Positions 5,825 through 19,995 of a stretch of DNA of 64,000 bases are shown here, piece after piece. Made by a program: the position numbers and the translations under genes. The notes under the pieces are model-generated. The model was not told the DNA's origin. It did not search any database and saw only the letters and a program-made list of their open reading frames with translations. Source of the stretch: Prochlorococcus sp. scB241_528O2 (GTDB lineage Bacteria; Cyanobacteriota; Cyanobacteriia; PCC-6307; Cyanobiaceae); contig JFLJ01000108.1 in NCBI GenBank assembly GCA_000634115.1, positions 1 through 64,000 of the forward strand, read 5' to 3'. Position 1 is the stretch's first letter; every line of letters starts with the position of its first letter.

Positions 5825-6073
5825 TTGGAAATCATGAAGGTATTAGGAAGAATGGTATGTACTCAAAGAGTCGCTGGACTAGGCCATATGAATTTACGAA
5901 TTTTAGAAAATAATAAGGGGAAGAAGTTAGTTGCTGTTGATCCTGTTGGTGCTAGAGAAGGTAACTGGGTTTTTACAGCTAGTGGTTCAGCTGCGAGATT
6001 TGCATGCCCTAATCCAGAAGTTCAAACCGATTTAACAATTGGAGGTATTATTGATTACTGGGAGAGTGATTAA
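5825..6073 (+). CDS. csoS4B: Carboxysome vertex pentamer protein CsoS4B
   Basis: 82 aa CcmL/EutN-type paralogue following csoS4A; possible upstream TTG start. Confidence 0.94.
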   Translation: MEIMKVLGRMVCTQRVAGLGHMNLRILENNKGKKLVAVDPVGAREGNWVFTASGSAARFACPNPEVQTDLTIGGIIDYWESD

Positions 6074-18696: not shown

Positions 18697-18810
18697 AAAA
18701 GTGTAAAGCTTCCCATTTTTTTGGTTAAATGGTTTGCTTTCGGCTAAAGTTAAAATGCGCAAATTCCTTATGGGAGTGTGGCGGAATTGGTAGACGCGCC
18801 GGGCTTAAAA
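18697..18810 (+). repeat. Direct repeat copy 1: tRNA-Leu upstream region plus 5' half of tRNA-Leu
   Basis: AAAAGTGTAAA...TTTTTTTGG..CTTTCGGCTA..GCG.AAATTCCTT.TGGGAGTGTGGCGGAATTGGTAGACGCGCCGGgCTTAAAA also present at 19759-19873. Confidence 0.85.
18772..18810 (+). pseudogene. Partial tRNA-Leu(UAA), 5' half through the anticodon loop
   Basis: 39 nt identical to the 5' part of intact tRNA-Leu at 19835 except one base (CGGGC vs CGGAC); sequence diverges immediately after CTTAAAA. Confidence 0.88.
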
Positions 18811-18850
18811 ACTAACCAAATAAAAGATACACTAGCGTATAGCATATATA

Positions 18851-18880
18851 GGGATTGGGGTAAAACCCATTCCCTTTCTT
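18851..18880 (+). terminator. Terminator-like hairpin downstream of partial tRNA-Leu
   Basis: GGGATTGGG-gtaaaa-CCCATTCCC (9-bp stem with one T-T mismatch) then TTTCTT. Confidence 0.5.
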
Positions 18881-18953
18881 AATTTATAACCTATCCACAT
18901 TAGTAGAAATATCTAACATATATCTAGCGCAAAATAAAAGATTATGAAATTCT

Positions 18954-19682
18954 CTATATTCTATTTTCCTTGAATTGTTCACCATTTAACCAAATTCCGT
19001 TCCAACTATCTCCATCTACCCAAGTATATTTTCCTTGACCATGGTGTTTACCATTCAACCATTCCCCAGCATAACTATCTCCATTTGCCCAAGTAAATGT
19101 ACCTTTACCATGGTGTTCACCATTCAACCATTCCCCAGCATAACTATCTCCATTTGCCCAAGTATATGTACCTTTACCGTGACTCTCATTATTTAAAAAT
19201 TCACCAATATATTTATCACCATTTGCATGTATATATATCCCCTCACCTCTCCTCTCGTCATTTACCCATTCACCAACATATTTATCTCCTTTAAATTCAT
19301 TATCTCCCCAAATCATAGTACCTTTACCATGGAAAGAATTTTCTGAAAACTGACCTATATATATTGTTCCATCAGCATATGTATATTTCCCCTTACCATG
19401 AAACTTTTCATTTACCCATTCACCAACATAAATATCATTCTCTTTAGGATTATCTGCATTTAAAAAAGTTTCTTCACCATAGCAAGCTCTTTTCTTATTG
19501 AAAAAATTACATTTTGGTAAAGATGATTTTTTTGAATTAATTTCTACACAACCCTTATAGTCCTTAACATATGAACACATTTTATGAATTTCTGATTCCA
19601 CTCCCGCATTGCCAATGATAGGAATCCCACAACTAATAATTAATACAATAGAGATTTTTCTAAAGGAATTTAATTTCGACAT
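18954..19682 (-). CDS. Exported MORN-repeat protein
   Basis: 242 aa; N-terminal signal-peptide-like MSKLNSFRKISIVLIISCGIPIIGNAG, then six to seven YxGEWxNxxxHGKGxYTWANGD units. Confidence 0.9.
   Translation of the reverse strand: MSKLNSFRKISIVLIISCGIPIIGNAGVESEIHKMCSYVKDYKGCVEINSKKSSLPKCNFFNKKRACYGEETFLNADNPKENDIYVGEWVNEKFHGKGKYTYADGTIYIGQFSENSFHGKGTMIWGDNEFKGDKYVGEWVNDERRGEGIYIHANGDKYIGEFLNNESHGKGTYTWANGDSYAGEWLNGEHHGKGTFTWANGDSYAGEWLNGKHHGQGKYTWVDGDSWNGIWLNGEQFKENRI
19041..19178. repeat. Two tandem 69-bp units encoding MORN repeats
   Basis: Units starting at 19041 and 19110 (period 69 bp) differ at two positions by eye. Confidence 0.85.
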
Positions 19683-19758
19683 TGAGTTTTCTGAAATTAT
19701 ATACTTACTTAAAAAAAATAACCAATTGAAAAATATCCAGCGTGTCTATTGGATCCTT

Positions 19759-19873
19759 AAAAGTGTAAATATTAGGATATTTTTTGGATAAAAGGAACAC
19801 TTTCGGCTACGATTGAAAAGCGTAAATTCCTTTTGGGAGTGTGGCGGAATTGGTAGACGCGCCGGACTTAAAA
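19759..19873 (+). repeat. Direct repeat copy 2: tRNA-Leu upstream region plus 5' half of intact tRNA-Leu
   Basis: Partner of 18697-18810. Confidence 0.85.
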
Positions 19874-19920
19874 TCCGTCGAGCGCTTTAGCTCGTGGGGG
19901 TTCAAGTCCCCCCACTCCCA
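19835..19920 (+). tRNA. tRNA-Leu(UAA), intact
   Basis: GGGAGTG acceptor / CACTCCC A; D-arm GCGGAATTGGTAGACGC; anticodon loop CTTAAAA; long variable arm GAGCGCTTTAGCTC; T-arm GGGGGTTCAAGTCCCCC. Confidence 0.97.
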
Positions 19921-19995
19921 TTATTTATTTTTAGTTCTTACGTTAACTTTTAAAAATTGTTATGTTTAGACTAAGAAATCCTAAATCATATAAAT

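Follow-up and report, generated by a model that had tools for sequence, protein, structure and literature searches.

The 64,000-nucleotide stretch of Prochlorococcus DNA analysed here, called the window in the following, carries at its tRNA-Leu(UAA) gene a small insert which we interpret as a non-autonomous att cassette, derived from a T7-like cyanophage and probably moved in trans by the phage integrase. We give this interpretation a probability of about two in three (0.68); both the movement and the catalysis are inferred. In our best reading the cassette is the interval from the CTTAAAA ending at 18810 to the CTTAAAA ending at 19873, about 1.06 kb. Its ends reproduce an attP of the P-SSP7 type cut at the tRNA half, with the P' arm on the left and the P arm motif, a promoter and the tRNA 5' half on the right. 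One gene for an exported MORN protein takes the place of the phage genome, and cassettes with other cargoes are found at the same place in relatives.

The model proposes that the cassette entered the anticodon loop of tRNA-Leu(UAA) by site-specific recombination and that an infecting T7-like cyanophage provided the integrase in trans; both steps are inferred. With the incoming promoter and 5' half the tRNA gene would work again, and the native half, now stranded, would be left to decay. The class of cassettes may have arisen repeatedly, by replacement of the phage DNA between two arm motifs with cargo.

The insert in tRNA-Leu(UAA)

The promoter and 5' half of tRNA-Leu occur twice in direct orientation, copy 1 at 18697-18810 between pyrC and the insert, and copy 2 at 19759-19873, where it enters the intact tRNA-Leu(UAA). 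The ungapped core of the repeat (18717-18810 against 19780-19873) is 94 nt with 85% identity, and the similarity extends to 18697 and 19759. The tRNA part is 39 nt plus the final A of CTTAAAA. The two halves (18771-18809 and 19834-19872) differ in a single base, and the similarity ends directly 3' of CTTAAAA, in the anticodon loop. Only one intact tRNA was found in the window by ARAGORN, tRNA-Leu(TAA) at 19834-19921, and the DNA between the copies is 1.06 kb with one sizeable gene. The -10-like box reads TAAAGT in the left copy (18745-18750), while its counterpart in the right copy, TACGAT (19808-19813), is intact. By its appearance the left copy is the native one in decay, and the right copy belongs to the element. 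The features are:

18697 to 18770, + strand: native upstream region and promoter of tRNA-Leu, apparently stranded by the insertion, -10-like box decayed; directly after pyrC, as in empty sites
18771 to 18810, + strand: left tRNA-Leu 5' half ending in CTTAAAA, the attL core, on the side of the crossover; differs from the intact tRNA in one base
18811 to 18931, + strand: phage-type attP P' arm with a hairpin and then TTTCTTA inside; matches P-SSP7
18921 to 18933, + strand: P' outer arm motif TATCTAGCGCAAA, +150 from the start of the half (phage +150); integrase binding inferred
18954 to 19682, - strand: cargo gene for an exported MORN-repeat protein of 242 aa (Pfam E=2e-43)
19734 to 19746, + strand: P outer arm motif TATCCAGCGTGTC, -100 from the tRNA (phage -97)
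19759 to 19833, + strand: host-like promoter, apparently carried by the element, -10-like box TACGAT intact at 19808-19813
19834 to 19873, + strand: tRNA-Leu 5' half, apparently carried by the element, ending in CTTAAAA, the attR core
19834 to 19921, + strand: intact chimeric tRNA-Leu(UAA), element 5' half plus native 3' half (ARAGORN, anticodon taa)

The sequence-only reading from which this work started had described the direct repeat at 18697 and 19759, the stop of the similarity after CTTAAAA in the anticodon loop, a single exported MORN gene in the approximately 1 kb between the copies, flanking genes pyrC, ndhL and trpA, and no integrase. All of this stands: the repeat alignment bears out the repeat and its end point, the one sizeable ORF (18954-19682) has a signal-peptide-like start, the flanking genes are as described, and the element contains no integrase. 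The repeat and insert are not due to chance, because the same MORN element is also present in a second genome (G177, L086/L284) and a comparable insert is found at the same place in 34 further distinct occupied loci.

The ends and the attP of T7-like cyanophages

The left end, 18771-18931, matches positions 5859-6019 of cyanophage P-SSP7 with 85.8% identity over 161 bp (E=8e-44), and with the tRNA half excluded the match has E=8e-23. In the phage this stretch has int on one side and the gene for the T7-like RNA polymerase on the other, and the phage layout is int, P arm motif, promoter, tRNA half, P' arm, RNA polymerase. A scan of viral sequences for the tRNA half gave at least 120 stretches; together with the P-SSP7 record 121 were considered, of which 106 have a T7-like RNA polymerase nearby, most of them with int too. 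The hairpin in the P' arm has a dG of -15.7 kcal/mol (z -2.2).

P-SSP7 and S-TIP37 integrate at the host tRNA-Leu, the integration of S-TIP37 requires int and attP, and the attP sites consist of 39 bp from the first half of the tRNA-Leu gene (Shitrit et al., PMC8776855). Stable lysogens of these phages were not found (PMC8776855). The duplication of a 5' half had been considered unusual in the sequence-only reading. The duplication is real but its origin was missed there: it is the 5' half and not the 3' end which is duplicated because the attP of the P-SSP7 group contains the first half of tRNA-Leu. The attL and attR with this 39-bp half as core, and the P and P' arms at phage spacing, with empty sites as control, both meet what is expected of a T7-like cyanophage integration product. 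The window element lacks int, RNA polymerase and every other phage gene, and so does not qualify as a T7-like prophage. We are nearly certain that its ends are att sequences of the T7-like cyanophage type.

It should be noted that one record in the viral collection (L226, IMGVR_UViG_2551306554_000001) has in positions 1-300 a host-like tRNA-Leu promoter and 5' half followed by a phage arm and a T7-like RNA polymerase. This host-derived record appears to preserve an attL junction left by cyanophage integration.

Outer arm motifs

A 13-nt motif, TATCTAGCGYGTC, is found at -97/-96 in P-SSP7-like phages with a counterpart at +150, and the window element has kept both of these outer arm motifs at the phage spacing (+150 and -100). 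In the group to which the window element belongs, here called family A, the best match on the right side lies at -99 to -101 in 23 of 25 elements, with a score of at least 10 in 21, and the left motifs are at +149 to +151. Shuffled sequences give 0.0012 motifs per element. The motif is absent from 62 empty sites, where the best score is at most 8 of 13 as against 9-13 in the elements. The consensus was derived from the same elements and phages that were scored, and position is therefore a stronger test than score. We infer that the motifs are integrase arm sites; there are no binding data. The P' and P motifs flank the cargo as near-identical direct repeats, which by inference could permit the cargo to be lost or swapped. 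With this arm as query a family sample of 400 genomes gave matches only in four genomes of the same genus, which is a weak result, the arms of other phage groups being different.

Empty and occupied sites in relatives

The distance from pyrC to the tRNA was measured in 80 named related Prochlorococcus loci chosen by PyrC similarity. The site is empty in 62 of them (about 105 bp) and occupied in 18 (0.38-2.75 kb). This occupancy of 22% applies to near relatives only, because of the way in which the loci were selected. After addition of further genomes from the genus and removal of same-contig duplicates, 36 distinct occupied loci were compared in all; the sample is dominated by single-cell assemblies, and one element (L269) is in a complete one-contig genome (G041). 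In all loci with a readable left half the insert starts at the end of this half and ends in an intact tRNA-Leu. The search did not detect a left half in five occupied loci (L007, L045, L047, L069 and L088), probably as a result of decay or deletion.

Looking for empty sites in the pyrC-ndhL interval and for alternative cargoes with the same boundaries had been suggested as a check on a non-autonomous, tRNA-targeting element with crossover in the anticodon loop, which would have rebuilt the tRNA's 5' half and promoter. Both exist: the 18 occupied sites carry different cargoes, and in each one whose left half can still be read the junction lies directly after CTTAAAA. The finding of empty and occupied sites with one junction supports the proposal. 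The suggestion that the element might be decayed was only partly right. Over 31 loci the left tRNA halves have 94 mismatches in total and the right halves 2, and the -10-like box TACGAT is exact in 61 of 62 empty sites, 27 of 31 right copies and 13 of 31 left copies. Thus left halves and left promoters decay, but the outer arm motifs, the right promoter and the right tRNA half are intact in most elements.

In one locus (L078) the pyrC-tRNA interval is 99 bp, an empty-size site with an element-type promoter, GGGATATTTTTTGG. It is possible that this is a scar of element loss through recombination between the two promoter copies.

Families of arms and tandem arrays

In family A the left-arm homology to phage ends at about +158 (mostly +157 to +167) whatever the cargo, and the promoter at the right end is host-like. 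In family B (examples are L010, L019, L068, L081, L281, L282, L285 and L287) the arms match another phage group; on the right the homology reaches -98 and at its furthest -221, the end of int included, and on the left its furthest limit is +219, which takes in the first codons of RNA polymerase. A tree of 33 element arms and 89 phage arms shows 17 label changes, at least 15 of them forced by well-supported branches; the alignment has 137 columns only and the details are weak. The element arms are scattered among the phage arms, and therefore either phages supplied arms on many occasions or the exchange ran both ways.

Two loci are tandem arrays, one with two family A units (L268) and one with two family B units (L282), with a separate half and arm for every unit. 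A third locus (L270) has a cargo-less unit of 250 bp before the tRNA with the P' and P arm motifs fused, which looks like the product of a deletion between the direct repeats that flank the cargo.

Exchange of cargo and the possible source of an integrase

The TPR cargo shared by L010 and L281 is 94.7% identical as against 79% for the host flanks, and the cargo of L009 and L048 94.8% against 88%. The arms of L010 and L281 are only 70-75% alike. Cargo and arms thus differ in their history, and this cargo moved between arm contexts, not as one unit. The cargo of the window is 81.5% identical to that of L284 with flanks at 86-90%; being less conserved than its flanks, it gives no sign of recent movement of the window element.

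No integrase was found in the elements examined. A resident autonomous copy with a P-SSP7-type integrase was also looked for, and none was found in 267 genomes of the genus; as a positive control the same query found phage integrases down to 37% identity. Any catalysis by the phage enzyme must therefore be inferred to come from infection. Neither an excised circle nor a packaged cassette was seen, and there is no cassette among the IMG/VR contigs listed with a tRNA half. In the window's own genome there are two weak matches to the Phage_integrase domain (L236 on G000:C101 and L237 on G000:C129), one of them above the Pfam cut-off, both unlinked to the locus.

Models for the origin of the elements

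Movement in trans is the best account of the arrays, the fixed boundaries, the empty sites and the preserved arm spacing, but it is unproven. Several points count against it. Circles and packaged cassettes were not seen, and three cargo families are absent from viral contigs within the reach of the scans. The transfer seen between L010 and L281 is not explained by integration of whole units, family B retains pieces of int and RNA polymerase of the kind expected in a prophage scar, the window element gives no sign of recent movement, and single-cell assemblies dominate the sample.

The most serious alternative is that the elements are passive scars, left where T7-like cyanophages integrated at tRNA-Leu and were nearly all deleted, and that unrelated genes were later placed between the remaining ends or exchanged there by homologous recombination without the units ever being mobilised. 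We consider this unlikely, with perhaps one chance in four. It explains the mosaics of arm and cargo and the phage gene ends of family B better than the preferred model does: the 3' end of int and the first RNA polymerase codons are still there, and the same cargo occurs in elements with dissimilar arms. The decay of left halves, the real phage-host attL junction in the host-derived record L226, and the likeness of the cargo-less L270 to a deletion between two arm motifs also agree with it. It is at variance with family A, in which the right promoters are host-like and yet the P arm motif is at the phage spacing in nearly all elements, and with boundaries which are near constant whatever the type of cargo. 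Tandem arrays with a half and an arm for each unit need repeated integration, and the cargoes are not common host genes that have drifted in. The two explanations are compatible, since scars can become cassettes.

A different tyrosine recombinase, of the tycheposon type or a host integrase, might use the same tRNA-Leu target, the likeness to phage arms being due to later recombination. The two domain matches in the window's genome could be cited for this, as could the use of tRNA genes and tyrosine recombinases by tycheposons (PMC10872708). Nothing integrase-like is found at the site in the loci examined, however, every end feature tested fits the att site of a T7-like cyanophage, and deletion of the phage int abolished integration although host integrases were present (PMC8776855). 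This explanation is already disfavoured and has very little left to support it. An assembly artefact or a simple tandem duplication of the tRNA 5' region is already refuted: single-cell assemblies can be chimeric, but the same geometry is seen in 36 distinct occupied loci, including the complete one-contig L269 and the second genome with MORN cargo, and duplication leaves 120 bp of phage arm unexplained.

The cassette model can be extended to the proposal that T7-like cyanophage integrases serve a cassette economy, in which tiny integrase-less units with phage att arms carry and exchange genes for exported or surface proteins at one tRNA-Leu site across Prochlorococcus. Infection would provide what is needed in trans to integrate these units, stack them and give them new arms. 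This extension is tentative, and we regard it as more doubtful than the model itself.

Cargo genes

The MORN protein of the window has six MORN repeats and a signal-peptide-like start. According to ORFs and Pfam the other elements carry PspC, YadA-anchor, TPR (with signal peptide), outer-membrane beta-barrel, rhomboid, TM2 and PDZ proteins and small lipoproteins, and the PspC cargo is found in both arm families. With signal peptides judged by eye, the cargoes look mostly exported or membrane-bound. Close homologues of the MORN protein in the 267 genomes of the genus are confined to the window and G177 (75% identity), both in such elements at the same tRNA, and the closest TPR homologues (at least 64% identity) adjoin tRNA-Leu too. 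Some relatives have larger MORN-repeat proteins, about 50% identical to the cargo of the window, for example at G110:C8 32398-33675.

Searches for int, RNA polymerase and gp0.7 gave no match within the cargo of the elements. A viral source of the cargo was considered and rejected: the MORN, TPR and YadA-like proteins have no relatives in viral contigs by a search that detects close relatives only, and the absence of these three families holds at the sensitivity of those scans. A defence function was likewise rejected, PADLOC giving no match for five cargo proteins. The only cargo matching PHROGs is the MORN protein, to a family of unknown function. A use in changing the cell surface, perhaps affecting phage adsorption, is speculative.

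Relation to known elements

The elements agree with T7-like cyanophage attP as described for P-SSP7 and S-TIP37 (PMC8776855) in target gene, 5'-half core, crossover end, arm motifs with their spacing and the hairpin of the P' arm. They differ in that the window element has one host-type cargo gene instead of about 45 kb and no phage gene, that the promoter is host-like and not phage-like, and that the cassette is stably held whereas stable phage lysogens have not been found. With cis-mobilizable elements, CIMEs (PMC5704250), they share the preserved attL and attR, the lack of a recombinase and the tandem arrangement (accretion). The retention of attL and attR with loss of integration and transfer genes satisfies that part of the CIME definition, but an origin from an ICE or IME does not apply. 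The ends derive from a lytic T7-like phage, and we therefore class the element as CIME-like and not as a CIME. Single-gene size, use of the 5' rather than the 3' end of the tRNA, many independent origins and interchangeable cargo are further differences.

Tycheposons, by the definition cited in PMC10872708, are likewise found in Prochlorococcus with tRNA targets and cargo genes. There they are described as 4-200 kb long and as having a tyrosine recombinase, whereas the cassettes are 0.3-2.8 kb and have none; the window element, with 1.06 kb and no recombinase, does not meet that definition. An overlap with small islands in the original tycheposon work (Cell 2023), and thus a prior notice of the locus, is possible and not excluded, and novelty is claimed with that reserve. 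Nothing on point was found in the literature on integrase-less satellites or partial-tRNA islands of Prochlorococcus, the original tycheposon description and Malmstrom 2013 being outside the coverage. Integrase-bearing phage satellites (PICIs, PICMIs) are also small units in the chromosome that depend on the att system of a phage, but the cassette has no integrase, packaging or replication genes and its packaging has not been shown. Integron cassettes resemble the elements in that they are small and poor in promoters, mostly hold a single gene, share one locus where they may form arrays, and have their recombinase encoded elsewhere; here the att sites are double-stranded, of phage type and in a tRNA instead of attC hairpins, there is no integron integrase, and arrays of at most two units were seen.

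The purpose of the integrase in T7-like cyanophages is puzzling, as these phages form no stable lysogens, and cassettes that combine the att ends of a phage with a variable cargo of surface proteins bear on this question. Small inserts built alike in dozens of relatives suggest that the phage integrase moves small genes. Reads crossing from the host tRNA half into a phage-like arm have been counted as integrated phage, 1.6% for group I (PMC8776855). The cassettes show the same junction as an integrated phage, and we infer that these published metagenomic estimates of integration may be affected; the cassettes diverge from the phage beyond about +160.
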